Source: Allacma fusca (lineage: Eukaryota; Arthropoda; Collembola; Symphypleona; Sminthuridae). From it: DNA of 64,000 nucleotides. Both the position numbers and the translations under genes were made by a program. The stretch is from assembly GCA_947179485.1 (NCBI GenBank), contig OX359249.1, positions 3,100,001-3,164,000 on the forward strand, read 5' to 3'. Positions 1,919-63,792 of this stretch are shown here, in pieces. Position 1 is the stretch's first letter; each line of letters starts with the position of its first letter. The notes below the pieces were generated by a model, which was not told the origin of the DNA, made no database searches, and was given only the letters and a program-made list of their open reading frames with translations.

Positions 1919-2074
1919 ATGTGAACAAGGTTTTATTCCTTTAATTAAATGCTCCTCCAAGGAGGAATATTAACGTAGTGGTAAAAACAAACTATACTAG
2001 CTAAACAAAAAATACTAGCCCCTAGAGAGGCAATGCTCATACTATGATGTCTATTATATCACGAGTCCACTGCA
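1919..2074 (+). mobile_element. Degenerate MITE copy
   Basis: The right end reads ...ATATCACGAGTCCACTGCAC, the reverse complement of the family's CAGTGGACTCGTGATAT-type terminus, and is preceded by the usual CCCCTAGAGAGGCAATGCTC core. The left end is strongly decayed but keeps the GCTCCTCCAAGGAGGAA block. Further right-end remnants of the same family lie near 2160-2190, 2445-2488 and 2568-2620. Confidence 0.42.
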
Positions 2075-2679
2075 CATACATATATGCTGGTACAAAAAAT
2101 ATAAATGTCCGATTTGTTCACATATTTTTTCAAATTTAGAGAAAATGTTCGAAAAAGCAGTCTCTTAAGGCGAGAGTCGCAATTCAGTGTTCATAACCTA
2201 AAGGAATCCTACACTGAATCTCTTAAAATTGTTTGCCCAAAAGATAACATATAGCAAGGGGATATCATACGGGCAAATGTCACTCTGTTTGCAATGAGAT
2301 AAAAATTAACATTGTGAAAATAATAAATACGGAAAATAAACACGCTGAATAAAATTATGGGAGTACATTATATAAATAATGGTAACGGGAGATAAATTAA
2401 TGCTTTTTTAACGGGAATTCGGGGAAATTATAGAGCAATAATTTAGAGAAAACGCTCTTAAAAAGGGTTTTCTAATTGCAAGAGTGCATTACTACGTGCA
2501 TAATTACTTTTAATAGGATAAACATTAGCGGATCGCGTTAAACAGACATTCATACAGATATTTGTGAGTATATTTTATTTTTGCCTCTTAGAGGACATAC
2601 TTTCACAAGTGTGTCTCGTGTAGAGAGAATAAAAAATTGTAAATAATTACTTTTCAGATGAAAAGAATTTAGCACTAAG

Positions 2680-2776
2680 GTACAGTAATCGGGAATTCGT
2701 GGAGATAATTTTTCTCTTGTAGAGGACATATGTACATATGCTCTCAAAGGGTCCCTTTTAGTATGAGAGTGCACTG
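2680..2776 (+). mobile_element. Truncated MITE right end next to gene start
   Basis: A core remnant (TTCTCTTGTAGAGGACATA) is followed by GCTCTCAAAGGGTCCC and the end TATGAGAGTGCACTGG. The left half is mostly lost. It lies about 260 bases upstream of the proposed start codon at 3039, so it may sit in that gene's promoter or 5' leader. Confidence 0.42.
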
Positions 2777-2953
2777 GGAGTGAATGAGACGATGACTGGT
2801 GAAATGTAGGACTGGTGAGCGCTGTGGAGGTTGTTTTTGGGGGGTGGGTTCGGGGAGAAGGTGCTTGGTAAATGAGAGGTGGAGAGGCAGCAGCAGCAGA
2901 GGGCAGGAGCAGGAGATTGAGAGAGGGGAAAGCAGGAGAGTGTGTGCATGGAA

Positions 2954-2975
2954 AGAGAGAGAGAGAGAGAGAGAG
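2954..2975 (+). repeat. (GA)n microsatellite in a purine-rich leader
   Basis: An uninterrupted GA run sits inside a purine-rich stretch (about 2800-3020) directly upstream of the ATG at 3039. If the small gene model is right, this is its 5' UTR or core promoter. GA runs there can bind GAGA-type factors in arthropods (inference). Confidence 0.6.
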
Positions 2976-3038
2976 AAAAAGGACTTTTTGGAGAGAGCGG
3001 AGAGAAGAGGACTCGTGTGGAAGGACTGACTGCCAGTC

Positions 3039-3850: not shown

Positions 3851-4023
3851 TACAGTGAACTCGGACCACAAGGGCATCTCTATAAATAGTAAAATGTAAC
3901 TTTGGGAACTGTTCCTCTTACAAGGAGGAAAATTAAAATTGTGGTAGATAAATGGAAAGGAAATAAAATATTTTTGCCCATAAGAAACAATACAATTGAT
4001 AAGGTTCCCTCAAACAGTGCACT
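3851..4023 (+). mobile_element. MITE copy
   Basis: The left end TACAGTGAACTCGGACC is followed by a GGGCATCTCTATAAAT block. The core holds CTTACAAGGAGGAAAATT and AATATTTTTGCCCATAAGA, and the right end is decayed (GGTTCCCTCAAACAGTGC). It lies within the proposed intron 2 of the small gene. Confidence 0.52.
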
Positions 4024-5954
4024 TAATAATAGCAGCTCTCAAAGTGGAGCAAAACCTCACTGAAATGATCCCATGCGTTTTTGAAGAGAAAGTCTAGCTC
4101 CGTGTAAAACCGAATCGTCTCAAGTATTTGAGGTCCTACTTAGAAAAGGGTTTTTAAGAGGCTATATGAGAACGAGAGAAGACTGTTAATTATGATAAGT
4201 TTGAAATTTGTGAAATATTTGGGAAATACAACAGCTCTTACAAAATTTATTTGAAAATTAGGTTTTTTCAATTTGCAACTTTCATATGATATTGGACAAC
4301 TAATTTTACTGTTGAGAGCAAATTTCATTTTAATTTCAGATAAAATTTTGATCCAAGCTATGTTTTTTATGCTTAGTTTTTTCGGGTCGTTGAGCTTGCG
4401 AGGCAATTTTAGAAGACGTTTGAGCTGGACATATAATTCCAGGAGAGCGACAGCTTTGCTTTTGTTGTCTAAATGTAATATACTGCGTTGCTTCTTGAAT
4501 TTGAAGCAATTGGTCTCCTTTTAGAAACAACTTGTTTCTAAAGTGTTGTCACGTTGTGTGCTTTAAAATTAAGCGATACCTTCGGTGTAATGCTTTCAAA
4601 ATTATTGTGGGCAAATATTATAAATTTTGAAAAAATATCACTTTATTTATACCATGTCGAAAAAAGTGGTACTAATTTGTGAATTTTCAAGAACAAGATA
4701 TTACAGATTAGAAAGAATTGATCAAAGTATAGGACTGTCCGTAGTATCTATAGTTTGAATGTTTTAAGCTAAACACAATTTTTTTTGAAGGTTACATGCA
4801 TTTCTAATGTACCACGTGAAATGACGGTGTAACGTCTCCCTCACTGGAAATTGGAGAGCCAGAAGGTGCTATATTGTTATTTTAACTTACAAAATGTGGA
4901 AGCCGTACCTCTCCAAAAACTTGTAAAACCAAAGGAACCTAAAGAGTAACGCTTCCAGATTTTTTACCCGGAGTTTCTTGAGGAGCCCCTAAAATTTACC
5001 ATGCGAACTTCATCATTTGTGTCAACATTTTGTTGAAAGTTTCACTATACATTTGTGTCCTTTCCAACTGACAGTTCTCAAGAAATATTTCGGAGTGGTA
5101 TAGTCAGGAAGAGATAATTGTTAACTTTCCTCAAAGCTATTGACTCCTGTTTGAAAATACGAGCAAGGAAACATATGGTTTAAATTACTTTCAGATTTGG
5201 TTAATTTGATGAAATTTTCCAACATTTCCCGGCTTGGAAGGGTGTGAAAAAATTATGTGAAAAGTGATTTATTTCAAGGAAATTTAAATAACTCCTTTGA
5301 AACTCATTTCCCCTCAGACTTTAAGGGTATTTAAGTCATAAATAATAAGTTTATATTGAAAATACGTTTAATTAAATTTTCTTATGAAATTTCCTTGATT
5401 TGGAATCATAAGAGGAAATCCTTCAACATGCAATTTTAAATACTCTAGGTGTATTTTTCTTTGGAAACATTCACTTTGAAAGATCGGGTGTCTCCCGAGC
5501 TTGCTCTGTTTTATTTATAAAGGAAAAAGCCACGCAGCACTCTCTCCATAAGGGCAGCCTTAAAAGTCACAACATGTTTGACCCTCAATTGTGTTTGTGT
5601 ACAGAGCAAAAATAACCTTGTTTTTATTCTGTTATTACGTCAATTTCCAAAAATAGTAGCAATTGTACAGAAAACATTCTTATTTCACGGGCAATTAAAT
5701 CCCGAGTTTGTAAATATAAATTGGGGATGGAGTAAATTTTGGTAGTGACATTTTATGAAAATAACGAAACTTATCGAAAAATATATAACACTATTAAAAC
5801 TTTTCTTGTCAAAGTGAAATCAAAGGAGATTGTTTATTTTGTACCGTCGCCCGCTGAGGGGGTCGACGTAAATTTAAGAATCGTAGCGAGTGCAATTTTC
5901 ACTCTATGTACATACATCCTCCGCCTAACAATGTGAGATGAAATGAGAGGAGCC
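4024..5954. other. AT-rich non-coding stretch (proposed intron)
   Basis: No exon is recognised. A lone MITE-like left end (CAGCACTCTCTCCATAAGGG) begins near 5535 with no clear partner. The rest is unique-looking AT-rich DNA that would fall in intron 2 of the proposed small gene. Confidence 0.5.
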
Positions 5955-6119
5955 ACAGTGTACTGTTCCTATACGCGTACCCCTAAAACAAGTCAAATTT
6001 GACTCTGGAAAGAACACCATGAGACACGGCGATTGGGATATTCGGCTATGTTTCAAAACATGTTTGCTCCTAAGAGAAAATTTCCTTTAAATTGAGCCTC
6101 GTGTAACCAGTTGACTGTT
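5955..6119 (+). mobile_element. MITE copy
   Basis: The left end ACAGTGTACTGTTCCTATA runs into ACCCCTAAAACAAG and a TTTGACTC block. The right side has TTTGCTCCTAAGAGAAAAT and ends in AACCAGTTGACTGT. Size and internal order match the other copies, so it is in the forward orientation. Confidence 0.62.
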
Positions 6120-6537
6120 TTTATGTTGTTGGTGAAGAAGCGAAATGGTCCTAGTGTGTCTCCGATTAAAATTTAAATATTCTTAATGGATTTCCGATTA
6201 AAAGCAGAATGAAGAATCCATATGCTTTATTAATTTGTCATTACGAAATGTGACCATTTCCCTTTTATTCAAAAATGCATTTAAACCAATTTGTTTTTTA
6301 CGTATGAAATGCTCTTTTTTGAAAATTATTATATAATTTATTATTGAAATAAAAAAATTGACATAGCCGTAAACGGGAATGCTTTCAAATACTGTATGTA
6401 ATTATGTATTTCTACCCTATAAAAACAATGCCCTTATAAGGCAGGGACGAAGACACGGTGGATGCTCATAAAGAGAGAGCGAAAAGTTTCCATGCATTCT
6501 GCTCCCTGAGTGAGAATATTTTATTAAGGGGATCCTT

Positions 6538-6683
6538 TATAGTGAGGGCTCCCCCTCAGATGCTCCTACGAGTATAGGGGAATTAAGATTGGAGGGAATG
6601 GGAAAGTGTCCAAATATGTATTTGTGCCTCTTTGGAGGAAATGCGGTGTTGAGGGGGTCCATTATAGGGAGACCCCACTGTAC
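6538..6683 (+). mobile_element. MITE copy
   Basis: The left end TAGTGAGGGCTCCCCCTCAG leads to GATGCTCCTACGAGT. The core GTCCAAATATGTATTTGTGC precedes the right end GGTCCATTATAGGGAGACCC with CACTGTAC. The left end directly abuts another right-end remnant (near 6520-6545), so two copies may have inserted side by side. Confidence 0.55.
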
Positions 6684-7324: not shown

Positions 7325-8595
7325 TCCAAATCTCCCCACCCTCATCCAATCTCCCTCCCCGTCCCCACCTCCGCATCCTCAACCTCTCCCTCTCCCTCCC
7401 CCTCTCACCTCCGTCATCCTCAATCTTACAAATCAACTCTGCCCTCACCTTGGACTTCCCATCCTTCATGCTAATTCCCAAACTAGTCATTAACTATGTC
7501 CCTGCCAGGTAACCATTTTCAAAGAATACAAAATCCCTCCATCTAATAATTCCAACGCACTATAAATCCCATGATTTGCTCACTGTAAGCAGCTTTTTAT
7601 AAAATTATTACTAATTAAACTTGTAAAACATAAATTACACACGTAATTACTCACAATTACATACATAGCTATTCTTGCCACAACTAAATTTTACCTCAGC
7701 CCTGATACAGATATGTACTGAAGGATAGATATCAGGATTGAAATTACAACTGTTATAAAACAACCTGCTCCTGGAATAATACCTTACATTAAAACTTGAA
7801 GATTAACAACAGCTCAAATACTGGAAGTACAATGGCGCTAATAAAAATGGCGATTCCATCCCTGAGGTTCAATTAGCTCTATGTTTAATTCTCCGTAGAT
7901 TGGGAGACAGAGTCGCTATGGTAAAGAAAGTAACAAATTTGAAAGATTTGATGCCTTGGAAAAATGAGGGATTTTCTTTCGTTGTCAAAGACATACAGTC
8001 CAGATATTAGGAGTGGTCAACGTGTTCCTGGTCTGAAGACACAAGGAAAAGGGGGGTGGAGTGCATAAGGAAGGAGATTGCACTCAGATGTGGGGGGATA
8101 GTGATAGGAGTGGAGATAAGGGCGGAGAAATTAATTTAAAATATGATTTTGTATTGTTGTTGACCGCACCGGTGCTACTGAAGATTTGTGGGGAGACGGG
8201 AATGGAGGTTGTGGGTGAAAGGAAGCAGTGTGTTCTGGAGATGGAGGAATGAAACAAGTGGTATAAGGGGAGAGGGCCAGTTGGGATCGTACCTAGGAGC
8301 TGCCCATAACATCCTGACTATAGTCCAAGTAAAGATGTGTTCCCTACCAGCCTCTACTATTCTTACCCTACAAAAAGTTAACAGGCTCCATCCTTACACT
8401 TTCCTCAAAGTCGCTCTCTCTCTCTCGTAGCCAGCGACAGCCAGAGCAGAGAAAAGGAGAGAGAGAGAGAGAAACACAAGGAGAGAGTGTGGAGTGGTGA
8501 GGGAAGGCATATGAGAGGGACAGAGCGATATGAAGGAGAAAAGGGAAATAGCGAGAGAAACGGGAGATTGAACTCTGTAGAGCATCCGAGCTATG
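7325..8595. other. Non-coding stretch with GA/CT-rich patches
   Basis: C-rich and then AT-rich DNA with short (CT)n and (GA)n patches at about 8408-8427 and 8456-8472. The open frames here are biased by composition and lack splice-site support. Nothing is recognised. Confidence 0.5.
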
Positions 8596-8773
8596 TACAG
8601 TGAACTCTCACTAGGACTGAGCCCTTCGGGAGAGCAAGCGTATACAGAGACAAAAATATTTCCCTTCGTCCCAATGACTCCAACATTAATTTCTCCCCTT
8701 CCAGGAGCATGTCTTTAGAAGAGGGGAATGTTTCTTGTGGGAAGGGTGCTCTTATAGCGAGAGTTCCAGTGTA
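8596..8773 (-). mobile_element. MITE copy, well preserved, inverted orientation
   Basis: The ends are TACAGTGAACTCTCACTAGG and CTCTTATAGCGAGAG followed by TTCCAGTGTA, clear imperfect inverted repeats bounded by TA. The internal order (CAAAAATATTTCCC before the ATGACTCC block) is the reverse of most copies, showing insertion in the opposite orientation. Length is 178 bp. Confidence 0.8.
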
Positions 8774-9513: not shown

Positions 9514-11438
9514 GGGAGAAATGTATTTATGAGTAGCCCTATGGTACTTGGAGTCTCTCCTTCCTCCCATCCATCCATCCATGCACATTCATCTCTCCAT
9601 ATGATTTCTCCTTTTCTTTCATATCCTACACATTCCCTGCCTACATCCTCCGAAACCAGCCCATTCCCTTTACTCCACGTCAGCCCGGAATTTCCTTCAG
9701 ATTTTTCTCTCCCAAAAATATCAGGTATTCCTCTTTCTCTCTCTCTCTCTCTCTCGCACTCCTCTCCCTTGTCCCTCTCACGCATACTTACATCTTATGT
9801 TGACTCGAGTAACAAACATAACCAACTTTGGTCATTTGACTCCCTTTCCTCCGCACAAGTCTCCTCTATCTCTCTTTTCTCTTCTCTCACATGACCACAC
9901 AAATCAAATATTACTTTCTCCCAACTCTCTCTCTCTCTCTCTCTCTCCTCTTCTCCGTTTCAGCCAATGATGTTCTATATGCCCATTCTAGCCATCACAA
10001 CCGTCTATTTTATTTTATTATTTCACCCTTCAATCCAGCTCTACAAAGAACATCTCCTTCATTCTCTCGAAGATCAGGGAAAAAAGACTGAGCTTCCAAT
10101 CCCCTAAAATCTTACGCCATCAAAGTCACAAGTGCAAGGAGTAAAAAAATGTCATGTAAATTACATACGAGAATATGAAAATCTTTCCTGACATTCCATC
10201 AGGTGCTACAAATATTTCCAGGCTTTTTAACGGATCGGATTGTCAACGGATGGTGAAAGGAGCAGAGTGGGCTCGGAATCTCGCATTGTACGCATCTCCG
10301 TTTAAATGCATATTTGTAAAGTATTGATGCAGGGATTCTATATGAGATATCATCCCAGGACTTTGTAATTACGAGGAGTTCCCTCATGAGGAGAAATATA
10401 ACGTTGTGCTGAAAGGGAATTTTGTTATATTTATCGTACTCATTATTTTGATCTAATAATTATCTACATTTTTTTCAAGGCAGAATAATTATTGCATGGC
10501 CAGACTGCACTTTACACATATGCAGTGGGATCTCTTTATCAGAGCAGTAACTCAAGGAACAATAGCTATTTGACTCCAAGAATTTCATGGGGTTAAAATT
10601 TACATCAAAATTTAATATTTAATAAAATGTCATTACGTCCAGATATTTTGGTTTCTGCAGAGGAAAAGTTGACAACAACTCGAAGGAAAATCCTTAAATA
10701 TCCTTTTGTCTATAGCAATATCATAGTGGACCATGTTGTCATTCACGTCCATTCATTCCAAAGTAATTTTGACTCCTCACAACACCCCGACTTTATGACA
10801 GTCTAATTTTCCTCATGTAGGGATGCTCCTAGAGGGAGATGAAATTGTACAAACCTTTATGGAATTTGAAATTGTTGACTAAGTAAATTGCTCCATCTGG
10901 AAAGGGCTGGGACGGACTGAAAATAGGAGGTGAAATAGAAATGCGCTCCTGTTTGGAAAAGCGATGTTTTGGAATGACACTTGAATGTGTGTTCCAGGAA
11001 AATGACTCCATGTTTTTAGGGGATGTAAAAATAGGAGCAATTAGTCATTCATTTGTATCTTTGGAAAGAGCGTTATCAGCATTAATCAGGCCTTTCGTCC
11101 AAGTCGTGCCAAGCAGAGTTGTTTCGTAGTACATGCCGAGTGTGAGGGAGTTCGGGCCGAGCCGAGGACGGAGGGAATGTTGAGTTTCCGTGTGTTTTGT
11201 AATTGGCAAGCTCCGTGCATTTCGGCCTGGTCATAAAAGTGAGGTATTTAAAAAATTGTGTTTAATTTTTTTACACCATGTTAGATGGCTGATAATAGAT
11301 TTGGAGTGTGTGTTTTGTACATTCACATACTCACTGGGAACAAATAGGTCTGTGAATGTGTGAGTGTTTGTGTGTGTGGGTCTACAGGACACTCCCGCTA
11401 TTGAGATAGCCCTCACTGGGGCCACGTTCACTCTCCCA
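9455..11438. other. Non-coding stretch with three GA/CT microsatellites
   Basis: It holds (GA)n at 9483-9511 and (CT)n at about 9736-9755 and 9924-9946, then AT-rich DNA. A MITE-like left end (TGCAGTGGGATCTCTTTATC) begins near 10520 without a clear partner. No exon is recognised. Confidence 0.5.
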
Positions 11439-11580
11439 GTAGAAATTGACTCTCATAGAGTCCACCCTTCGAGGGATAAAAATTAGTATTCCTGTAAATG
11501 GGAATCTATGGAAATATGTCTGAGTCTGTAGAGACAATGCTCCTACGAAGGGGGTGTCTGACAGCGTGAGTTCACTGCAT
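11439..11580 (+). mobile_element. MITE copy
   Basis: The left end is TAGAAATTGACTCTCATAGA with CCACCCTTCGAGGG. The core AATATGTCTGAG and GTAGAGACAATGCTCCTACG leads to the right end ACAGCGTGAGTTCACTGCA. The order of blocks is forward. Confidence 0.6.
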
Positions 11581-12469: not shown

Positions 12470-12626
12470 TACTGTCTACTCCCTCTATAAGAGTATCCCT
12501 CCAGGAGGGGAAAAGTAATTCCGAGAAAAATCTACAGAATATTACAGACCAATACATTCCAATATTTTTCCCTCCATAGAGAAAATGCTCTTACGAGGGA
12601 GGCTCTCATAGTGAGAGTTGGCTTTA
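12470..12626 (+). mobile_element. MITE copy
   Basis: The left end TACTGTCTACTCCCTCTATA leads to AGAGTATCCCTCCAGGAGGG. The core AATATTTTTCCCTCCATAGA and GAAAATGCTCTTACGAGG is close to consensus, and the right end is CTCTCATAGTGAGAGTTGGC. It lies 32 bases before the next copy. Confidence 0.75.
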
Positions 12627-12657
12627 TTATTTACGATCCCGTGGGACCATTTCAAAT

Positions 12658-12661: not shown

Positions 12662-12724
<63 letters not shown>

Positions 12725-12893
12725 TACAGGAACTTCCCTAAAAGGAACAAAACTTGACTCTAACATTCGCAGGCATTTATAATGAGGGACACTAAAATAG
12801 AAGTAAATGGGAAAGGTCCCCAATATTTGTGTCTCAGAAAATCCTCAAAAAACTAGAGAGGGTCACCTATACAAATAGTATGAGAGCACTGTT
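12658..12893 (+). mobile_element. MITE copy whose left inverted end expanded into (CT)n
   Basis: The element opens CCAGTGTACTCTC, exactly where the family has its CACTCTC terminus, and then runs into uninterrupted CT (12666-12718) before resuming with TACAGGAACTTCCCTAAAAG and a TTTGACTC-like block. The core CCCCAATATTTGTGTCTCAG and the right end TATGAGAGCACTGTTTGTA complete it. Without the CT run it would be about 185 bp, the normal family size. Confidence 0.8.
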
Positions 12894-13030: not shown

Positions 13031-13233
13031 TAAAGGCTATTCTTTTTATAAGGGCATCTCCAAAAGTAATGGATAACATTGGGCTCAGGCAGTCCGAAGT
13101 TTTTTTTGCATAAGGATAAAAATAGCACTGTGCTAATCAGGAATGACTCCAAATAGTTTTGACCTTATAGAGAGAATGCTGCTCAAAGGCTACGCACTAC
13201 CAAGGGTGACTCGTATAGCGTGAGTTGATTGTA
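13031..13233 (+). mobile_element. MITE copy
   Basis: The left part TATTCTTTTTATAAGGGCAT with CTCCAAAAG is recognisable, though the outermost bases are decayed. The right part TATAGAGAGAATGCTGCTC ends in CGTATAGCGTGAGTTGATTG and TA. Confidence 0.6.
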
Positions 13234-13530
13234 GAGAATAAAAAATGCATAGCATAGTGGAGAACTTTTGTGTGCATTGGAATCCAAGGGTTAGGGAAAA
13301 AAACGTTTAAATCCCCCAAGTCTGGAAACATTGTTTTTAATAAACCGTTTGAAGTAGAAACTATTTTGACGGTGTCAGGTTGTGAAGGGAAGTATTAAAT
13401 TAAGTTGTTACGCAAGTTAAAGGGAGGGAGAAAAGGAGCGGGAGTGATAACAAAACGGAGTGTATTTCAACGTAAACAAGCGTGTGGGAAAAGTAAATCC
13501 TTTCCTTCAGAAAGAGACAGAAAGACGTAC

Positions 13531-15198
13531 AGAGAGTGAGAGAGAGAGAGAGAGAGAAATCTTACAAAAGGATTGGAATTGAGTGAAGCCTTTTTCTACT
13601 TTGTGGGTGTAAGTGGATATATAGACAAGAAATGTGTAGTTACGTTTAAATAGAGTATTTGTGAAGGTTTGTGAGGAAGGTGGAGTTGACTTTGTTTAGA
13701 GGAGTAAAGTATTAAAGGAGGTTGACTGCTGAGAGGTTTTGTTACATGTGAGAATGTCGTAGCATATAATGCTGAGGAAGTGCTTCATTCTCTTGAATTT
13801 ACAATGCTCTGCTTATTTATTATATTTTGATTCCAACTTTTTATCGGGCTGTTCATTCCTTTTCAGGGGAAAGACAAAGAAAACTTTGCAATGTTAATCT
13901 TGTAATGTTCATTTCGTGATTTCTCCCTCGCTTTGACTACGGACTTGGGAATTAGACGGGAGGTGAAAAAAAGGCCAGGAGTGGAAAGGATTGGGGCGAG
14001 TGGGACGGAAAAAAGGAGAGAGAGTGAGACAGAGAAAAAAAATGTGAAAAGCAAAATGGAGCGTCAGTTGGAATCTGATTAGATATTTACATTGTAATGA
14101 TAAGACCTTAATAAGATATTACTTACAGTTGTCTTGGCCGAATTTTGCTAATTCCACAATTTCCCCATCTTCAATGTCTTGAAAGCCTTTCAAATGTAGA
14201 AAATATTGTAGAAATTTATGCAAAGCTTGTCTTATTTCATGTCAACTTATTAAATAGGATTAACTCTATTTTTTTCTCTCCTTTCAAAACCCCTGGAATA
14301 TCAAAACCGCAAATTATTAGATAATATTACTTACTTCAAACAAAATAATTAGCAATTTTAGTACACGCTCTACAAGGGACGCTCCTTATAATTATTACCC
14401 CCTTTCAAAGGAGACAATTCCACTGTTAAAAAAGTAAAATGGTCTTGCACGCAGGGAAAATGAATTTGGCTAAACAAGAATCTATGAAAACATTTTGACA
14501 TATATAGATATTATAGATATAGCGACTTGACTTTTATAGCAAGGGGATATAAAACACTGTACGAAAATGTCCTTTTGTAAGACAAAAATTTACTCTGTCA
14601 TATTATCGGAAATTGTTCAAATACGTTTGCTCTCCCAGCAATGATGATTGCAAAGGTATGATTATAGTAGTCCGAGTGAACTGTATTAAGCTTATAGTTT
14701 GAGCTAATTATAATTAATTAGTTTAAGTTGCGAAATCATTTTATAATATACAGGGTACTTTCGCCATGTGAGACACTCTTGATACGAGTATTTTCTCACG
14801 AAGCAAAGACAATAATAATAATTGTACAAAGTCCCATTTAACAAAATGGTAAGTTTCGTCCTTATACGATAATACAATTCTGATATTTTCAGGGGTACAC
14901 GTATTTCATATGTATTTATTTGAGGTCAGGTAGGCTCTCACTCAATTCTATATTTTTTGTATATTCGTAATTTTTGTTATCATTTGTATTAATTATCTAT
15001 CTATTTTTAAGGGTACTCTAAAATAAGGACCAACAATATTATATGAAGTGTAATGGCTTTGAATCCGTGTTACCTTTCTCGCTTAACTCTTTTTCCAGGG
15101 AAGTGACAGATATCTCGTTGATGTCACTTGAGCTTTTTTTACGTTCATTTTTGCGTCTTATCCAGCATAATTACGAGTATCTAGATATACGTAGGAGT
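13531..15198. other. Non-coding stretch with a (GA)n run and MITE remnants
   Basis: (GA)n lies at 13531-13557. A possible MITE covers 14359-14561 (ends TAGTACACGCTCTAC and GATATAAAACACTGTAC), and a further right end (TAGTCCGAGTGAACTGTA) lies at 14666-14685. No exon is recognised. Confidence 0.5.
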
Positions 15199-15372
15199 GC
15201 AGTCCACTCTCTGTATAAGAACACCCTTACAAGACACAACTTCCGGCTTGAAGTGACGTGCTGTTGTGTGGAGAAAAATTAAGGTTGTGGGAAAGGGGAA
15301 TGGTCCAATTATTTTTGCCCCTAAGAGAAAATTCTCGTAGGAAGAGATCTCTTATAGCGAGAATTGACTTCA
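15199..15372 (+). mobile_element. MITE copy, near-consensus
   Basis: The left end GCAGTCCACTCTCTGTATAA leads to GAACACCCTTACAAG. The core has GGAATGGTCCAATTATTTTT then GCCCCTAAGAGAAAATTCTC. The right end is CTCTTATAGCGAGAATTGAC with TTCA. Length 174 bp, forward orientation. This is one of the best copies for defining the block order. Confidence 0.85.
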
Positions 15373-15633
15373 TGGAGGATTATAGTTAAGGTACATTTTC
15401 CAAGGATGCTTTCCGTTTAATAACCCCATTTTTGTCGATTATTGATTCTTACAAATAAAACAAAACAAATGGAGCGGGCTGGCTAACGAAGAGAGAGAGA
15501 GAGAGAGAGGGAGAGAGGGAAGCGAGGAGAAAGGAGAGAGAAGGAGGGAAAAAGCGGGGAGAGAAAAAAGAATTGAAAGCAATTAGAAATAGAAGAAAAA
15601 AAAAGTTTTTTTTATTTGAGACGTTGGAGGAAA

Positions 15634-17413: not shown

Positions 17414-17595
17414 TACAGTGCAGTCCCTCTGTAGGAGCATCCCTAAAGGGGGAAAAGATCCCGCTCCTGTAATGACATCCTGTGGTTAAGGGGGAAATGA
17501 ACATTGGGCTAAATGGGAAAATGTGAAAGTAATCCTCCCCTACAGAGAAAATGTTCTTGGACGGTGTGATCCTTGGATAGTGAGATTAGACTGTA
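17414..17595 (+). mobile_element. MITE copy, both TA-flanked ends intact
   Basis: The left end TACAGTGCAGTCCCTCTGTA leads to GGAGCATCCCTAAAGGGGG. The core has TAAATGGGAAAATGTG and CCCCTACAGAGAAAATGTTC, and the right end is GGATAGTGAGATTAGACTG with TA. Length 182 bp, forward orientation. Confidence 0.85.
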
Positions 17596-18018
17596 TGTAG
17601 GAAATGCAAAGGTATTTGTGCTCCGGTATGTATGAGAGGGAAAGAACGTAATTATGTACATACATATAAACGCCATATGTTTGCATGCGTGGGGCTCCGA
17701 ACGTAGGAAGACGTGCACCTTTTGTACGGAGGTTATTCGACTCCCGATTTCCCCCTCTATTATGACTTGGCTGATGCTCTCTTACCCAACCGGCCTCTCA
17801 ATGTGTAAAAAAGATTCCTCTGAAGCTACATGGAGCTCAATTGTGCGTGTAACGTGAAGGAACGTACGTGTAATAATAGCTGAAAGGAGTGCACTACTAC
17901 AATGAGACGTCTTCCGGACCACTCTTAAATGGGACTCCTCGTGTGGGGAATTTGCATACTGTAGGCAAGTGTGCAGGGGAAGGAGGGAAAATAGGCGGGA
18001 GTGGCAGAACATGGCAAG

Positions 18019-18042: not shown

Positions 18043-18423
18043 AGACTGCAGAAAAATGTGAAGGTGGCTTAATGAATTTGAAATATACGCAAAAGGTGTA
18101 ATTTTTCAATACTATCCACACCAAGCTGTAAGTCCATGGAAGGGAGGGAGGGAGGGAGAGAGCAAGAGATAAATATAGACCAGCATGCAATAATCGTTTG
18201 TCCGGACCTGAGCGAGTGATGAGAGAGGCAGTGAGAGCGGGATTGAGGGCATGGGAAAACAACTTACAGTGCACTCCCTCTGAAACGCACTCTCTCCCTA
18301 CTCCATTTTTCTTCTTAAGTTTCAAATTTTTCCCACAAATTCCCGTTTACCCTAATGTTCCATTCCAACCCCGTAAAAGTACATTCATAGCTTTCTCTAT
18401 AAAAATCACATCATAGGATAGCA

Positions 18424-18627
18424 TACACCCTGCCCTATTTTTAGGAGACCACCTCAAAAGTTGTGAGTAAATTTGACTCCAAAGTAAATGTTTTTTTCCT
18501 CTCTACAAGGAGGAAATTGTAAATAATAAATTCTCGTAATTAATTGCGAATGTATGAAAATAATGTTGCTCCTACAGAGAAAATTCTCAGAAGTGGATCT
18601 CTTTATCCATTGTACGATGAACTGTCG
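18424..18627 (+). mobile_element. MITE copy, first of three adjacent
   Basis: The decayed left end TACACCCTGCCCTATTTTTA leads to GGAGACCACCTC. The core TTTGACTCCAAAGTAAATG and TTGCTCCTACAGAGAAAATT is clear. The right end GATCTCTTTATCCATTGTAC reaches GATGAACTGT. The next copy begins at once. Confidence 0.55.
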
Positions 18628-18628
18628 T

Positions 18629-18795
18629 CACAATAGACCCTCCTCAAATTAGGGGAACCATTTCTCAATACATGGGGAAATGTTGGGGCAAATTTCCGTG
18701 TAGGACAATGGTTTCCTTTAAACAAAATCCAATTGTGAGGAAGACAATTTTGATCCATTGAGGAGTGCTTTTATAGGGAGAGGGGACTTAAGTAT
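18629..18795 (+). mobile_element. MITE copy, second of three adjacent
   Basis: The left end CACAATAGACCCTCCTCAAA leads to TTAGGGGAACC. The right end GTGCTTTTATAGGGAGAGGG finishes GACTTAAGTA. The core is more diverged than in the neighbours, but spacing and order fit. Confidence 0.5.
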
Positions 18796-18800: not shown

Positions 18801-18979
18801 TACATTGACCGTAATAAGAACCTCCTTTACAAGAATATCTGTAATTATTTGTTCCTCGTAGGTAAAAATATTTTCACCTGTTTGTACTAAGCTCAGCGTT
18901 CATTTCCCTCGTGCCAGGATCCACGGATAGTTAAATTTGGCTACTTTGAGGGTCATCCTTATAGAGGGAGTGCACTGTA
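18801..18979 (+). mobile_element. MITE copy, third of three adjacent
   Basis: The left end TACATTGACCGTAATAAGAA leads to CCTCCTTTACAAG. The right end is well kept: GGGTCATCCTTATAGAGGGA then GTGCACTGTA. Length 179 bp. Confidence 0.62.
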
Positions 18980-19335: not shown

Positions 19336-19842
19336 GTGAAAATCCTTGTAGTTTTTTTTATTATAAGTCCTTACATGCATATAATGATGTGTGTAAACTG
19401 GTATAATATAAAAACTTGCCAATCAATATCACTTCCACACGTTTCCCATCTGTTCTTCATTAAACGTATTTTCCTCGACTTTTTCCATGTTCCCAAACAA
19501 CGTCCTCTCGCCAACCATGCAGGCGTCACTTCCTCCTCACCCACCTTTCCTCCTGGCCTTACAATATGTACTCAGAGTCTCTCCTCCCGAACCTCACTCT
19601 CCCACTCAATTCTCCTCAAAGGATCCCAGCAACTCCTTTCTCCATCCACATATTTACGCACTTGTACTCCTCCAGTCCAAAAGTTCGTCCGAAAATTAAA
19701 AGGTCACAATATTTTTTTCTCAGGGAACCATCTCCGTATCCTAAACAAGGGGCAGTGTCAATAAATGAAAGGGAACTTGAAAGAGTTACACATTTCGGAC
19801 AAAGAACAAGTACATAATAAAAACCTGTGTAAATAAATACAA

Positions 19843-20004
19843 ATGCAGTGCTCTCATCCCATAAGAGACTCCCGTCTAAGAGACAAGTCTTTCTAAAGGC
19901 GGAAAATATTACATTATGCCACAATTTATCCCAACAAAATCATTGAATCGTATCAGTCCACTTTACTCATTTTAGGGATGCTCTTGTAAATAGTGCGCAC
20001 TGTA
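19843..20004 (-). mobile_element. MITE copy, inverted orientation
   Basis: The ends are ATGCAGTGCTCTCATCCCAT and GGGATGCTCTTGTAAATAGT followed by GCGCACTGTA. The internal order (CTAAGAGACAAGTCTTTCTA before GGCGGAAAATATT) is reversed relative to most copies. Length 162 bp. Confidence 0.7.
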
Positions 20005-20207: not shown

Positions 20208-20293
20208 AAAGTGCACTCTCTGTACAGAAAATCCCTGAAAGGGGCAAAATTTGATGCAGTACAAGTAGATAGCGTCTGCGGGTGACCACTGTA
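20208..20293. mobile_element. Possible internally deleted MITE
   Basis: The left end AAAGTGCACTCTCTGTACAG is good and is followed by AAATCCCTGAAAGGGG. The right side GGGTGACCACTGTA is plausible but short, giving only about 86 bp. Confidence 0.36.
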
Positions 20294-21197: not shown

Positions 21198-21230
<33 letters not shown>

Positions 21231-43397: not shown

Positions 43398-43581
43398 ATT
43401 TACACAATTCATCCTCTTGATAAGAACATCCCTTAGGAGGCGCCACATTTGACTCTTGTAATTGGATACTTATATATATGACATTAAAGATTAGGATTCT
43501 GCATAACGTAATACATCGGACTAGAGTTGCTCCTGCAGAGAAAATTCTGGAGGGTATGTTATAGCCGGAGTAGACTTCAGG
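43398..43581 (+). mobile_element. MITE copy inside the intron, near the 3' exon
   Basis: The left end TTACACAATTCATCCTCTTG leads to ATAAGAACATCCCTTAGGAG and a TTTGACTC block. The core TTGCTCCTGCAGAGAAAATT precedes the right end GTTATAGCCGGAGTAGACTT. It ends about 165 bases before the splice acceptor at 43745. Confidence 0.7.
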
Positions 43582-47311: not shown

Positions 47312-47637
47312 ATACAGTAGTGATTTCTCGCTATAACAACACCTCCCTAGAAGAGTCAATATGATTTTATCTCGGGTCAATTATTCTCATGGGAGGAGGG
47401 AAAATAGCATTGAATTAAATGGAGTAGGTCTTCAAAATTCACAGTACCTATCCGACTATAGTGCTTAGTATTTACATATAACAGCACCTGTGAAAATTTG
47501 ACACAGGGGTTGTATTGGAGGGCTGACAAGAAAAAATGAAAAATAATATTCTGGTAAAGGACATTTTGAGAAAATATTCACATTACGGGCAAGATGCTCT
47601 TCTGAGGGAGGTTTTTATAGCGAGAGGTTTCTTTATT
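47312..47637 (+). mobile_element. Longer MITE-family element, 326 bp
   Basis: The left end TACAGTAGTGATTTCTCGCT leads to ATAACAACACCTCCC. The right end GATGCTCTTCTGAGGGAGGT finishes TTTATAGCGAGAGGTTTC. The interior is longer than in the common copies and contains a second end-like piece (ATAACAGCACCTG near 47480), so it may be composite or closer to a parent element. Confidence 0.58.
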
Positions 47638-48907: not shown

Positions 48908-49835
48908 GCTGGGAGAGCACTTGTACCTCGGGCCATTGATATGGTCATAGATTATTAAGAGAGGGCTGTGGACTGTGAGAAGATATTGGGACCATTAAGA
49001 GGACACTCTGAGGCCATTTTGCACCAACTCCCTATCAGGGATTAATTATGTACGAGCCCTGAGGTATTATGTACGAGGATTTCAAGTGGTCATCAGGTGC
49101 TCATGCATTAATTCACATTTTGTGGACAGTTCCTCTCTTTGTCTGGTCCTTTGGACGACTGTCGCCTCGGAATTAGTCCCTCTTCTTCCACTCCCATCAT
49201 TCCCTCTATCATGAGTCCTTCCTTTAAAATTATGCATTTACAATGCTTCGGGTGAGAATCGTCTGTCAAGTATCGATTCCGAACCTCTCCACAACCAAGG
49301 CATTTTCCCTTCCTTTGTCCATAAAAAAAAACTAAATCTCCGCAACGTTCCCAGCCCAGCTCTTCTGAATGTCATGGTCACAACTCCACCATGCAACCCA
49401 AGCTGAGAGCAGTGAAAACTCCTTGTCACGGCTCACCTCCAACGAGCAAAAATTGGCTTGTCTAATGCCATATCCTCATGCACACAAAATAGAGCACTGG
49501 TTCAAATGGGACTTTATAAAAATCTGTATGCATGTACATATTTCCACTCCCTTTACAACGGCGCCCCTCGGAGTAGACCATTTACTTTCTCGAGTACAGT
49601 GTCATCAACTGCTAATCAGGGCTATGGGCATAAATGTCACTAATTATATGTACACGTAATGACTTCATAACAACCAGCACAGTCACAGTACACTCTATAT
49701 TGGGTTCAAATGCAGTAAATCCTTTTTGTAACGAACGACTCTCAGGTGGATCCTGGTAGTAATAGCAATGATTGTCCAATGATTTTATGACATTTTCCAA
49801 GAGAATATTGTAACCCTTACTCTGAGGCCTTCGTG
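48908..49835. other. Non-coding stretch
   Basis: Mixed-composition DNA with no convincing exon or repeat. A CAGTACACTCTATATTGGG word at about 49686 resembles a MITE left end without a partner. Confidence 0.5.
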
Positions 49836-54332: not shown

Positions 54333-54891
54333 TACAGTGCACTCCCTTTATTTTAAGAACGCTGGGACTAGCCCCGGCCTCCTGTAATATACTGTAATAT
54401 AAATAACCCTTACAAGAAAACGTTGTAGTAAATATGTCACAATGTTTTAAAAATCTATAGAGTCCACTTTTTATAGTGTGCTCTTTTTATGACAACACCC
54501 CTGAAAATACAGGAAAGACAGTGACAATGTTCTGTAGATACATTAAAAAACATTGGGGTAACCGGAACTCTATTTTTTTTGAAATCCAAGGACTGTGCTC
54601 CGTGCCGTGCACTCCCTTAATTCCAGCCCTCTATTTCTGAGAGTAGAACACGCCCTTATAGCATTATCTGTAGTAAAATGCAGTATGTCTTCATAATCTC
54701 CATGTGGATTCAGAGTGGACTATAGCTGTAGAGGATTTTCTGGATGTGCATAGGTAGATGATACTCATATATGTAGGTGAACGTATTTTTGTTTAAGATG
54801 ATGTTAATTTTGTCGGACAAAAGGGCATGGAATTTGTACGAGGGGAATTGGGGTTTTGAGGGGTGCTCTAATAGAGAAAGTGTACTTTAGA
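54333..54891 (+). mobile_element. Cluster of decayed MITE ends
   Basis: Left ends start at 54333 (TACAGTGCACTCCCTTTATT), 54474 (TATAGTGTGCTCTTTTTATG, then ACAACACCCC) and 54604 (GCCGTGCACTCCCTTAATTC). One right end, GGGTGCTCTAATAGAGAAAG then TGTACTTTA, closes at about 54890 and probably pairs with 54604. Two or three nested or truncated copies are likely. Confidence 0.5.
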
Positions 54892-57960: not shown

Positions 57961-59491
57961 GCTTTCGCAGAGAAAGTTAAATTGGAGAGGAAAAGTTGTG
58001 AGGGCCTGTCTAATAAGTCATGTTGTAATGGATGGCTGGGTTATTTGCCGATGAGTTGGGTCGAGGGAGAGGAGCGAGAGGTAAGGAGTAGGAAATGAAA
58101 TTGGTTCGAGAAAATGCTCAACTGATTGTGAAGGGAAGAGATTGGGAGTTGATTTGGAATGTAAACAAGAGGAGATTAGCGGGCGGGTTTCGCAACTTCT
58201 CCATGGCCGGTTGGGCAAGGCTTGGCTGACTATCCATGCCATACAGAAATAATTTGGAGTCTGCGAGAGTTGTTAAAACCTTAAACGCCACTCATTAACT
58301 TGTATTGATTATTCTGCAATCTGAATCGCAATTTTCACATCAACCAAATCTCGTATGAGGCAATTCCTCCCAAATCTGGCAACCTTGCCCCACCAAAAAT
58401 CCGCTCGTATTCACGCCAACGCTTTCCAAAACTCTCTCTCTCTCTCTCTCTCTCTCATTTCTTACTCCTCATTCCTGAAACCTCCCTATTAACATATACG
58501 CATCCATTTCAATACAACCAGGACAGTTGACACGAACGTTTCGGTGCACATCTTCCCTGAAAAAAAAACATCTACGGAAACAATACCAGAGAAAGTTACT
58601 TCCCCCTTCCAAAAATTCCTTCCACGATCCCTAACTCCTTCCTGAACCGCGGCCCATGCTCATTTCCAAATGTTCCTACAAAATCCTCCCAAAATGTCCT
58701 GCAAGTCGTGGTAGTTTGGGAGCGAAATTGAGACAAGAATGTAGGACCATCTTCATTAATTAGATAGACCCCAAATCAATAGACCAATTAATTAAAATAA
58801 ATCAACGCTCCTCAGGTGCCGATGTTCAGCTCCTTGTCCTTGTCCAGGAAACTGTGTGAATTATGCACGTAATGTAATTATTATTATTACGACGGATCTG
58901 TCCGCACCTTTTCCTTGGATTTCCTCCGCGGTAGGAGCAGTTGGAAGGAGTCGAGGACTATTTTAAGCTCACTCCCGTGTCCCGTGGATATTAATAACTG
59001 TTTCTGCCAGACAATGATGCAATAGAGTGTACTGGGAATTTTTAATAAATACGAATAATTATGTTTAAAATTACAACACGGGATTTCTTCCTAGAAATTG
59101 GAACAATACGTCTAGAAAATTATGCCCGAATTAAATTGAATGGATTCCCATGGATGGTCCCAGAGCCACGTGCTCACGTCCAATCCGATGCAAACTGAGT
59201 CTCAAAGAACCATGCTCTTGGGCCTCATATGTACATTACGTGACTACCGTCCTGCCCATTCCTTAATGTTATAACACAAACAGTATTACTTGTACGTGCT
59301 TGATCCCATTGATTTTATTTTGCATGATCTTTTGGAGATACAAATTAACATTGGGATAAATCGATAAAATTACTTTTGGGTCGAAATAATCATATAATTA
59401 CTTTTCCTTTTACAAAGACGTTGCTGTTATGAGGGTGTATTTTATAAGGAGACCTTACTCTAATGTATGCTCTTACAATAATAATTATTAT
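57961..59491. other. Non-coding stretch
   Basis: A (CT)n run lies at about 58434-58456. A MITE-like right end (GGGTGTATTTTATAAGGAGA) is near 59433-59461 without a clear left end. Nothing else is recognised. Confidence 0.5.
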
Positions 59492-59694
59492 CACTAGGGG
59501 GTTGCTCTTTAAATTGTGTGTTTTTCTAGGGAAGAAACGTGAGCGTTATTTTGAATGGGATGTGTCCCAATATTTCCCCCTCCCCCCGAAGGAAAAGGGG
59601 TGATGTGCCCTACTCCCGTAATATCCGTCATAGTGTCTTATGGTCCCTTGTACTAGTGTCTTATGGTCCCTTCTTATAGCGAGAGTACACTGCA
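59492..59694 (+). mobile_element. MITE copy with internal duplication
   Basis: The left end is poor (GGGGGTTGCTCTTTAAATTG). The core TGTCCCAATATTTCCCCCTC is followed by two copies of AGTGTCTTATGGTCCCTT (59632-59649 and 59656-59673), then the consensus right end CTTATAGCGAGAGTACACTG. Confidence 0.6.
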
Positions 59695-62592
59695 CTTGGG
59701 ATTTTTTTTCAGAGAGTGACGTCACTCAGAAAGACAATTGGAATGCTCCCCTTTCTGATCCTTATGCTACAGAATGACTTCAAATGGATGTGCTTATAAT
59801 ACAAAATGTGATTTGCCTGCTAGTCTTACTAAAAGTTGTGTGGTCCAGTTCGTGTGTGGAATTTAGAGGCTAAATAATAATTATGTATCTATTATTAGTC
59901 CTAAGTTGTGCATGAGAATGCTATGTCTTGTCAATGCAATGGTTTCCCTTGTTTTAGCTTTATGATTTTCTAATGAGTCCTCCGAACATGAGGTAAAATG
60001 ATTGGTACTCGATCCAGGAGGGACTGTTGTAGTAGACAGGAGGAAGTTAATGTATAATTATATTATATATACTATATGACTGTGTTGGTAAATAGTAGAT
60101 GAGGACTAGTCCCTCGCTCGCATGTTATCCCAATTGTGAATGTATTACTTACGGGAGAATTTGTTATTTGGGGGAAAGTGGAGGCTCGGGTCGGAAGGCC
60201 GGAGTAGTGTCAGACATGTTTGTAATGTACTTGATATGTTGATGAGTCAAATAAATTATTATTCATATATTTGCAGGAAAAAAAAAGAAATAATAAAGTT
60301 GAATTGAATGCTAATTTCTTTTATTATTATTTATCCTTGTGTTTAATTGTGTGTGCGTGTGTCGTCCAATTTAGCGTAGAAATCTCCATATTTTTGCTCG
60401 CTATATAATCCCCTTGAATTTTCGTTGGACTTGGCTTGAAACCAGCATGATGTGAATCCACTCTAGTTACATAGTCCAAGGTGAGCATTTCCATTCATTT
60501 ATAACTTTCATTTCATGCATGACTAGCCCTCCCCCTCCCCCCTCACTCCGTTCCAGTCAACCAACAACTCTGCCCTCACAGGCCACATCACTCACTACTC
60601 CTGGACAGTCAACTTCCGCTTTAAAATGGATCTCCAGGTACAGGGATTTTTCAATCCTATTTACATTATCGCCTTTCGTAGACTTCCGCCAATAGGAAGC
60701 GGTTCCGTGTAAAATCCCCAAATCTGTCAAAGGCTGGAAATCCTTCGCGTGGGAGTCGGCTTAAAATTTCCCTTGATTATAAATTAAGGCGCTCTATTCC
60801 AAAATCCCAGATTTTCCTTTCTCTAAAGAACACGCCTGTACGATACTCTTTCAAAATTAAACGTTTTTACGAAAACCCCCTTTCAAATTTTTCACTCTGA
60901 GGAACAATTTTAAAATCCTCAGTCCATTTCAGGATATGACGTTCTTTCTATTTGGTTAAAAAAGAGTCCCGATTTTCTAAATTTTCAGAAGCATGGTTTT
61001 TCCCAAAATAAAGAGTCATCAAATGAATCCAATGTTGCCAAGTTTAATGAGTAAATCGGATTATGAATTACATAATAAATAAATTTGGTTGGCTTGTGCA
61101 AAAAACTTCCGCCCGCATTGACACACTCCCTCAGTACGTATGTGGGTTGGGAAGTGTTTCCTGTTTGGAGAGTTTCTTATTACTGGTACGAGCGAATATA
61201 GAATTTGATAAATTTGAATGGAATTCATTCTCCAGGAAAATGTATGGGAATATTACAGTCCGATCTCCTTGGGGGAAATCCAAATCAGCGCCTTCCTGTT
61301 TACCACAATGTTAATTTTTCTTGTCTACAAGACCAGGGAATTACATCAGTGAGCATTTGCTCATATGGCAAGAGTTTTACTAAAAACAATGCACTGCGCC
61401 ACGTTTTGTCATTTTGGAGGGCAGGCCTAGAAGGACTCGGTAAAACTCGTTTAGAACGGTTTGGGTCACATCCTACTAAAATTCAGTTATGTTCCGAAAA
61501 TTCCAAGAATATATTGCAGGGCGTACAGTAGCTACAATAGAATAGGGAACGTTGCATTGTGGAAAGTGTCATCGGAATATGAGAATACCTAAAAATAAAA
61601 ATTCCCTGTCATAACGGATTTGTAAGGAGAAATATCACTACTGTCTTAAATGAGGATGCATGAACTTGATTATACTGTAGGGAGTATATATGCAATATGG
61701 AGGGATCCCTTAGAAAAAGTTTCACTGTAAATGATCGGGAATGGAATTTAGCGGTTGTGGAAGTGCATGGATGTATACAGTGTTGAGAGTGGAAGACGCA
61801 TTTAAATACATTAGCGGTGCTCTAATTGAACTGGGAATGAGTTGATTGTGACGCGGAGTGAATTCTTGGGGAGATTGAATATTAATTAAATTGTATGATA
61901 AAATAAACATGAGGATTTGAAGAAGAACGCAATGAACTCGGGGATTTGAGGGTTCAGGGCCTGCTCTTGTGCTCTCTTGTAAAGTGTGTGTGTGTATGTA
62001 TGTGTGTATGTGTGTGTGTGTGTATTACTGGAATTGATTTGGAGACCGTCCACGGCGTCTACACGAGGAGGATATTTTTGCGAATGTTTAGTTGGAAATT
62101 AATGGGTTTTCCACTCGAAAGCGCTCGAGGACTTGTCATCCGCTCCTGCTCATTGTAATTCCTGAGGAGCACCTGTTTCACATTTATCATGACATTACCC
62201 AATACTTGACATATCTGCGGGTTATGGTAATCTCCACACATTGTTTCCAGTCACCTTTTTTTATACTCCGCAATTAATTAATTAGTATTCTCATTTCACA
62301 GATGGCTCAAAAATATGGCTGCACTTCATTTCCCACTTTCCACCCATTTCCTCATCTCTGTCTCTATTTCTCTCTCGCTCTCTCTCTCTCCCTCTCTCTC
62401 TCTCTCCCTTGCTCAACAACCCATTGTTCTTTACCTTCAATTTTTACACTCATCACACACAATTCAAATTAATTTTTTCACTTCCACACTCCAAACTTAT
62501 TGTCATCCCAAGCTCCTTTGTCACTCCTCCAGCTCATTCACTCTCCAAGTCTAAACCATTTACACACAAGCAGAAGCATACAGTCCTCCAGA
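59695..62592. other. Non-coding stretch
   Basis: AT-rich DNA with a MITE-like right end (GGATCCCTTAGAAAAAGTTT then CACTGTA) at about 61702-61731, (GT)n at 61986-62022 and a CT-rich tract at 62362-62406. No exon is recognised. Confidence 0.5.
61986..62022 (+). repeat. (GT)n microsatellite
   Basis: A GT run with GTAT interruptions. No feature is attached. Confidence 0.9.
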
Positions 62593-62791
62593 TACAGTAC
62601 ATTCTCTCCCTAACAGCATCTCTACAAGCTCCTAGTCCCCTCTTACAAATGACTCCTCTCAAAAACAGAAATACTATTGTAACAACCTGCTTCAATACAG
62701 ACACTATAGAAATATTTTTTAAAGTTATGCTCATTCCCTTAAGAGGCGGTCTAATATATTTGCAGGGGTCTTTTGTAAAGAGAATTTATAT
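62593..62791 (+). mobile_element. MITE copy
   Basis: The left end TACAGTACATTCTCTCCCTA leads to ACAGCATCTCTACAAGCTCC. The right end GGGGTCTTTTGTAAAGAGAA finishes TTTATA. The core ATGCTCATTCCCTTAAGAG fits. Length 199 bp. A further right end (GGTGCTCCGACCATGAGACT) lies near 62960-62985. Confidence 0.65.
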
Positions 62792-63401
62792 TTTAAATTT
62801 CTATAATTACGTAGTATCATATCCCCAGGATGTTATTCCTATAAGACCTCCCTTTACAACAGCTCCTTCTACAGAAGGCCAAGCACATTTTGTGACATTC
62901 CCATTTAGTTGTAGCAGCCAGCATTGAATTTCATTCTTCACAAGATGTCTAATTTTAAGGGGTGCTCCGACCATGAGACTGCACTCAATTGACGGATACA
63001 TACATACGGGTTCAATTCCATCTCAACTCTCAAATTTGAAGACAGTTTCTCATAACAAAATCAACCACAGCATCAGCAATAACAACACCCAAAAAAAAAA
63101 TCCATAAACACAATAGCAAAACCTTACACGGTAGTTATTAAAGGATCCTCAAAGCATTTGAATTTGGAATAGTATTTACAGGGAAGAACGGAATATGTAG
63201 ATATATAATTACATATAAAGTGGCAGTTTGTACAGTCGAGACTGGAAAGTTATTTCAGTTAAAATTTTCCTCCTTTGGGGGGGGGGTGCTCATATTAATA
63301 ATAATTACATACGCTCATACGGAGAACTTGGTCATTTTAACAGGAAGACCCTTCATGCAAAATTATATGTAATTATGTACCCGTACCCGTGCTGACGTTC
63401 A

Positions 63402-63614
63402 TACAAGTGCACTCTCTATACATATATGAGAGCACCCCTCCAACTAGTAATTTTTAAATAGCTATCCGTACGTCCTATCAGGGGGAGGGAATATCCTTTG
63501 GTTCGGTTCAGGGGAATGTATTTCAAAAAACGGGAACGTGCCCAGACAAGTCTGGCCTTGCAGTAGAAACAATGTTTGTTATGAGAGTGTCTTCTATAAA
63601 GTGATGAGGCAGTA
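63402..63614 (+). mobile_element. MITE copy
   Basis: The left end TACAAGTGCACTCTCTATAC leads to ATATGAGAGCACCCCTCC. The right side ATGAGAGTGTCTTCTATAAA finishes GTGATGAGGCAGTA. The next copy starts at once. Confidence 0.62.
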
Positions 63615-63792
63615 TTGGAGCCAACTCTGTCTACAAGAGCATCCCTAAAGGAAGCAGTGAGACTTATAATGGCATGACGTATGCAATAAGGTGAAAAATG
63701 AAGATGGGGTAAATGGAAATATAAGCAGAAGTTTGGCCTGGACTGTGAGAAATGGTTTTGTAAGGACGTCCGTTGTAGCGAGAGTTGACTGT
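63615..63792 (+). mobile_element. MITE copy, abutting the previous one
   Basis: The left end TTGGAGCCAACTCTGTCTAC leads to AAGAGCATCCCTAAAGG. The core GGGGTAAATGGAAATATAAG precedes the right end CGTTGTAGCGAGAGTTGACT with GT. Length 178 bp, forward orientation. Confidence 0.75.

Follow-up and report, generated by a model that had tools for sequence, protein, structure and literature searches.

Why should one short repeat recur dozens of times within 64 kb of a collembolan chromosome? The stretch in question, hereafter the window, is the whole of C5:3100001-3164000 in the 392.74-Mb genome of Allacma fusca (91 contigs), and a preliminary description made from its letters had proposed that it carries a single family of miniature inverted-repeat transposable elements (MITEs) at very high local density. 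This is confirmed here: the repeats are a real MITE family. Going beyond that description, the copies are very old, stem from separate insertions, and are strongly uneven in density over the genome. It is very probable, in our judgement, that a Tigger-type MITE was scattered in an ancient burst of separate insertions; its density in the window may be due mainly to survival in this part of the chromosome, apparently X1.

The MITE family in the window

How many copies does the window hold? A first scan with the motifs quoted in the preliminary description brought up many worn matches. A profile trained on the window, seeded with ten hand-picked copies and iterated until it settled at 183 positions, yields 60 non-redundant matches, whole or partial, at E<=1e-3 (56 at 1e-5), spanning positions 1562 to 63792, and 27 of the 60 are near full length. 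The same profile finds nothing in the reversed window, nine matches at E<=1e-3 in 200 kb of contig C1, sampled as 20 pieces of 10 kb, one per 4 Mb and placed without regard to genes, and nothing in these pieces when reversed. A second profile, meant to lessen circularity, was built from copies elsewhere in the genome, namely 16 stretches with 17 copies (L059-L074) chosen among 41 BLAST matches to the window consensus; L073 was left out of the consensus, the profile and the pairwise and column analyses because its flanks are identical to those of L071. This outside profile, made of 16 copies, recovers 53 window copies (0.83/kb), 16 of them near full length under a stricter rule, and has no match in the reversed window or the reversed 200 kb of C1. 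Its matches coincide with the window-trained set in 52 of 53 cases, and 51 of the 60 are recovered conversely, it being understood that the two profiles are not fully independent because the outside copies were located with the window-derived consensus.

The earlier count of at least 30 copies plus unpaired ends is thus borne out. As to the rate of about one copy per 2 kb, the high density stands while the figure does not if fragments are counted, which gives about one per 1.1-1.2 kb. Both orientations do occur, 40 copies on the plus and 20 on the minus strand (binomial p=0.013; strong copies alone 25:13, p=0.07). Coverage is uneven, with no copy at E<=1e-3 between 32,609 and 42,902, and a large zinc-finger open reading frame sits inside this MITE-free stretch (32.6-42.9 kb). 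At 2387-2776 and 6350-6683 there are two triplets of adjacent same-strand matches to the right part only, with no left parts between them. All copies and fragments are given below, where W denotes a match to the window-trained profile only and W+O one also recovered by the outside profile.

Position, strand, MITE feature, basis
1562..1662, minus, fragment, W
1900..2075, plus, copy, near full length, W+O
2110..2177, plus, 3' fragment, W
2387..2488, plus, 3' fragment, W+O
2505..2628, plus, 3' fragment, W+O
2650..2776, plus, 3' fragment, W+O
3851..4008, plus, copy, right end missing, W+O
4014..4186, plus, copy, near full length, W+O
5537..5682, plus, copy, right end missing, W+O
5955..6118, plus, copy, near full length, W+O
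6350..6479, plus, 3' fragment, W+O
6481..6550, plus, 3' fragment, W
6560..6683, plus, 3' part, W+O
8594..8766, minus, copy, near full length, W+O
10520..10840, minus, copy with internal extra sequence, W+O
11383..11580, plus, copy, near full length, W+O
12470..12627, plus, copy, near full length, W+O
12719..12892, plus, copy, near full length, W+O
13035..13234, plus, copy, near full length, W+O
14400..14503, plus, fragment, W
14555..14686, plus, fragment, W
14747..14903, minus, copy, near full length, W+O
15200..15373, plus, copy, best match (111 bits), W+O
17414..17597, plus, copy, near full length, TA at both ends, W+O
18264..18388, minus, 3' part, W
18442..18603, plus, copy, W+O
18618..18788, minus, copy, near full length, W+O
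18812..18979, minus, copy, near full length, W+O
19842..20004, minus, copy, near full length, W+O
20210..20252, plus, left end, W+O
20837..20939, minus, left half, W+O
21041..21205, minus, copy, W+O
22182..22356, minus, copy, near full length, TA at both ends, W+O
24650..24787, plus, fragment, W+O
25462..25574, plus, right part, W+O
27693..27805, minus, right part, W
28041..28133, minus, fragment, W+O
28503..28672, minus, copy, near full length, W+O
29165..29339, plus, copy, near full length, W+O
29495..29651, plus, left part, W+O
30358..30493, plus, left part, W+O
30641..30678, minus, left end with exact TACAGTGCACTCTC, W+O and motif scan
31351..31512, minus, copy, near full length, W+O
31619..31663, minus, left end, W
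32472..32609, plus, right part, W+O
42902..43066, plus, copy, near full length, W+O
43405..43580, plus, copy, near full length, W+O
47319..47423, plus, left part, W+O
47533..47636, plus, right part, W+O
49410..49523, plus, left part, W+O
54475..54572, plus, left part, W
54778..54886, minus, left part, W+O
59321..59463, plus, right part, W+O
59472..59695, plus, copy with extra sequence, W+O
61271..61396, minus, left part, W+O
61581..61730, plus, copy, left end missing, W+O
62593..62783, plus, copy, W+O
62838..62985, minus, copy, W+O
63406..63604, plus, copy, W+O
63619..63792, plus, copy, near full length, W+O

What does the element look like? The consensus of the 16 outside copies is 179 bp long and agrees with the window consensus over the ends and the core, so that the alignment suggested in the preliminary description does give a shared consensus, with the inverted termini, the subterminal block and the asymmetric core noticed there. 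It contains TTTGACTC, AATATTTTTGCCCC and GAGAAAATGCTC; its inverted ends of 24 bp with TA termini, TACAGTGCACTCTCTCTATAAGAG on one side and TACAGTGTACTCTCGCTATAAGAG on the other, agree at 22 of 24 positions, and the single-stranded consensus folds as one long imperfect hairpin (-70.9 kcal/mol). Target-site duplication was judged from TA at the element ends. In the window TA is kept at the model end in 16 of 28 cases on the left and 17 of 30 on the right, by a placing model that itself includes TA; genome-wide, in a search that did not require it, TA precedes 480 of 674 exact 12-bp CAGTGCACTCTC ends, with 3 and 17 sites in the reversed-pattern controls. Judging from its length, the element would be too short, as well as too decayed, to code for a transposase. 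It is therefore a MITE in the usual sense, short and non-coding with inverted repeats, present in many copies and both orientations, with target-site duplication and a longer partner that shares its ends.

A partner transposon of the pogo/Tigger branch

From what kind of transposon could such an element be derived? Pairs of exact ends were examined among the matches listed (the first 100 places, all on C1), and opposed pairs there are spaced about 660-700 bp and 3.4-3.8 kb. Two of the longer elements, L009 (3.8 kb) and L010 (3.4 kb), share 98.8% identity across 3188 bp, and their ends match the left end of the MITE at 23 of 24 terminal bases. Bases 1-80 of the MITE align to one end of these elements at 80% (colinear stretch 78 bp) and bases 122-179 (58 bp) to the opposite one with 81% identity, arranged and oriented as internal deletion would predict, while bases 81-121 find no good counterpart among the alignments listed. 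When the pieces of L010 were each searched separately against Pfam, CENP-B_N (1.2e-5), HTH_Tnp_Tc5 (1.1e-10) and DDE_1 (2.7e-27) were matched above the curated cut-offs, and the fourth open segment had no Pfam match. L009 likewise has four open segments with near-identical translations, the Pfam scan having covered L010. This division of the transposase into four open segments in both copies might reflect introns, or decay or a shared defect. The preliminary description had recommended looking for a longer element that shares these ends and carries a DDE transposase; such an element is thus present in the genome, and the window itself, in keeping with what was said there, has no match to the four L010 pieces (tblastn, E<=0.01).

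In the L010-type transposase 30 residues lie between the second and the third catalytic D, as read from the translation. In pogo transposases the spacing between these two residues is about 30. With CAGT termini within TA, and with a partner that carries a CENP-B/Tc5-type DNA-binding domain and DDE_1, the assignment to the pogo/Tigger branch of Tc1/mariner with TA targets, put forward earlier from the ends, holds good; it differs from the usual member in that the window element is non-coding and the frame of its partner is split over four open segments. The window element is securely a pogo/Tigger-type MITE, an internal-deletion derivative of an ordinary kind. Emigrant of Arabidopsis and MADE1 of human are short pogo/Tigger-like deletion derivatives of the same sort, with high copy number and TA targets; the likeness is one of general description, and the present family stands apart in the strong divergence of its copies and their concentration in a single domain of a chromosome. 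The pogo/Tigger family is treated in PMC7325037.

L009 and L010 have diverged far less than the MITE copies have, and are thus probably descendants or cousins of the MITE parent and not the parent itself. Two shorter candidates for an intermediate element were rejected. In L011 (1.5 kb between exact ends) one of the two ends proved to belong to a complete 179-bp MITE copy, at 3-177 of its reverse complement, which ends a 1.48-kb stretch between exact ends; L012 (1.3 kb) is a young MITE, of the sister kind described below, carrying an insertion. L040 (3180-4103) is an older, longer relative, in which MITE-like ends flank a remnant of the C-terminal piece of the transposase.

Age of the copies and mode of their spread

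Identity to the consensus ranges from 59 to 82% among window copies (median 68%, Kimura distance 0.43). If the copies had multiplied locally, neighbours should have more mutations in common than distant copies. In a pairwise test on the window copies at E<=1e-6 (n=32), using pairs with >=60 common columns, the similarity in excess of a star phylogeny is 0.0195 within the window, 0.0172 between the window and the 16 outside copies, and 0.0111 among the outside copies; by distance it is 0.0200 for pairs <5 kb apart and 0.0202 for pairs >20 kb apart. Since the divergence is star-like and neighbours are without extra common mutations, these are separate insertions and not local duplications, and the window copies are best read as having come from one old burst.

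Distribution over the chromosomes

Is the density a property of the window, or of its chromosome? Male embryos of Allacma fusca are described as discarding one copy each of X1 and X2 (PMC9630974; PMC10427803), and C5 and C9 most probably represent X1 and X2, respectively. The MITE is far denser in the window, on this apparent X1, than in the sampled stretches of C1, where the outside profile finds 7 copies in 200 kb (0.035/kb), a rate difference with p=1e-25 between a window picked for its repeats and pieces that ignore genes. Even 7 overstates the MITEs proper on C1, because two of them are the ends of the L040 element with its transposase remnant between. Ten samples of 2.5 kb from C5 gave 9 copies in 25 kb with the outside profile; with three nearer ones excluded, those more than about 30 kb from the window hold 4 copies in 17.5 kb against the 7 in 200 kb of C1 (p=0.009).

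The genome-wide BLAST list, 41 matches from the best 40 of 1383 candidates, is distributed as C5 18, C9 11, C1 5, C12 3, C10 2, C8 1 and C83 1. X1 and X2 make up 26% of the genome but account for 29 of the 41 matches (p=4e-9). Of the 18 on X1, 17 lie within 2.6-11.1 Mb of this 55.6-Mb chromosome. A search with a core pattern of 34 positions, allowing up to 3 mismatches, found 22 places (control 0), distributed as C5 11, C10 4, C8 3, C12 2, C1 1 and C9 1, in which X1 is over-represented (p=7e-5) and X2 is not. The window has a GC content of 0.41 against 0.32-0.39 in the 20 C1 samples. GC as the sole cause of the density was nevertheless rejected: C1 copies lie in samples of GC 0.32-0.37 (window-trained profile) or 0.35-0.37 (outside profile), so that there is no simple link. 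In the literature searched no publication on MITEs or X-linked transposons in Allacma was found, and in the main text of PMC9630974 'transpos' and 'repeat' occur 0 times.

A young sister MITE with the opposite distribution

The pairs of exact ends 660-700 bp apart belong to a young MITE (L013-L021, all from C1), with 86-96% pairwise identity among 9 copies. In most copies its terminal 24 bp differ by one base from each end of the old MITE, and its subterminal CTCTTATAA blocks are similar, but it is almost four times longer. When a 694-bp copy was used as query, the best 40 of 405 candidates were all full-length and lay on C1, C8, C10 and C12, and none of the 40 fell on C5 or C9. An array on C12 accounts for 21 of these matches; if it is collapsed to one, 20 loci remain, again none on X1 or X2, for which the chance is 0.736^20 or about 0.002. 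Compared with these young loci, the old BLAST list differs at 4e-8 (Fisher) and the core-pattern list at 7e-5. No interior of the young MITE was found in the window. The C12 array (C12:40127664-40200784) has, among the matches listed, 21 same-strand full-length young MITEs, mostly 1.3-3.7 kb apart and up to 9.4; it is a tandem array containing the young MITE, and may hold further copies.

The transposon family itself being ordinary, it is this contrast between old and young that is the interesting, under-tested part. If it holds, X1 and X2 would record how paternal genome elimination and the haploid exposure of the X in males alter the gain and loss of transposons.

Why is the MITE so dense in the window?

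The identity of the element as a Tigger-type MITE is secure; the cause of its density in the window is not. How might the present state have arisen? An ancestral Tigger-like element would have lost its interior and become a non-autonomous MITE of ~179 bp, with about 80 bp left from one end and 58 bp from the opposite one, stretches that presumably include the transposase binding sites. In a single ancient burst, transposase encoded elsewhere in the genome, presumably that of the ancestral element, would then have excised the MITE and inserted it at TA sites. Each window copy would have been inserted separately and have decayed since, and the present density would reflect mainly good survival in this part of X1, where later insertions would have been few and losses small, perhaps on top of some original insertion bias. 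Survival is favoured because it fits the opposite distributions of the old and the young MITE.

Several points weigh against this account. No intact transposase or intact autonomous copy was seen. The part played by survival is weakly tested, as autosomal density comes from C1 alone, from 20 fixed places none of which was chosen near genes, whereas the window was selected for its repeats and has a large gene within it. The excess on X1 is patchy: copies occur in 4 of the 10 samples, one of them adjoining the window and one 26 kb away. For X2 the two lists disagree, with a rich share of the BLAST matches (11 of 41) but 1 of 22 core-pattern places. Both genome lists favour less decayed copies, so that a slower mutation rate on X1 could contribute. 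Finally, a few young copies on X1 or X2 may exist, because the query came from C1 and the list is the best 40 of 405.

What are the alternatives? The one that survives best, possible though clearly less probable than survival, is that density was high from the start because the ancestral transposase favoured this domain, either for its open chromatin or by local hopping from a donor on X1. Such an original preference fits the opposite distributions nearly as well as survival does. The clustering of the X1 BLAST matches in 2.6-11.1 Mb speaks for it, and so do 8 of the 11 core-pattern matches on X1, which lie within 2.0-11.1 Mb; yet copies are absent from the 2.5 kb that adjoin the window on its left and from a further sample some 50 kb away on that side. 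Local hopping with the copies themselves as donors would be expected to give neighbours common mutations, whereas close and distant pairs show the same excess similarity; this comparison is not decisive, since one master donor would leave no such signature.

Could recruitment as regulatory or chromosome-identity elements, around the zinc-finger gene or on X1, have caused the copies to be retained? We regard this as improbable. In its favour are the excess on X1 by both lists, the position of copies around the large C2H2 zinc-finger frame, and a per-column identity in the window more variable than binomial (chi2/n 2.58). A precedent is ISX of the Drosophila neo-X, a transposon that spread on an X chromosome and is likewise a transposon-derived repeat of X-biased distribution; PMC4384637 reports a role for it in dosage compensation, to which nothing seen in the MITE of the window corresponds. 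But identity along the MITE is fairly even and highest at the ends, without a long preserved core block, and the excess of variance is also seen in 21 outside copies (1.79), and sub-families or alignment edges could produce it; the test for preserved columns thus gives no clear sign of recruitment. A bolder proposal is that X1, and perhaps X2, keep an ancient layer of Tigger-type MITEs and escape the recent one, in its strongest form with the domain recruited as a mark read in X elimination or dosage control; little credence can be given to it at present.

Still less credible is segmental or tandem duplication of a larger unit containing the MITE. The runs of 3' parts on one strand at 2387-2776 and 6350-6683 and the strand skew might be expected from it, but comparison of the MITE-masked window with itself (low-complexity filter on) gives no more than four pairs of 46-61 bits besides a tandem array of 29-bp units, and this together with the star-like divergence led us to reject it. 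That AT-rich or (CT)n stretches and short motifs merely simulate a family can practically be dismissed, for although TACAGTGCACTCTC grades into many (CT)n runs and 2 of 20 end matches (<=2 mismatches) run straight into (CT)n, the consensus is 179 bp of mixed sequence and the reversed-sequence controls, the window and 200 kb alike, have no profile match.

Other features of the window

The open frame in the MITE-free stretch (34253-38989, plus strand) encodes 1578 amino acids, including several C2H2 zinc fingers that follow a recurring pattern (FCNKYFLKxH...); it matches Pfam zf-C2H2 at E 6.9e-14 and no PDB sequence at E<=0.001. The 29-bp tandem array lies at 45815-46250, with about 8 or more copies of a CTCAAAGTGTAAAAACTAGAAGGCTAGGC-like unit. 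Runs of (CT)6+ or (AG)6+ number 31 in the 64-kb window and 4 in the 200 kb of C1.

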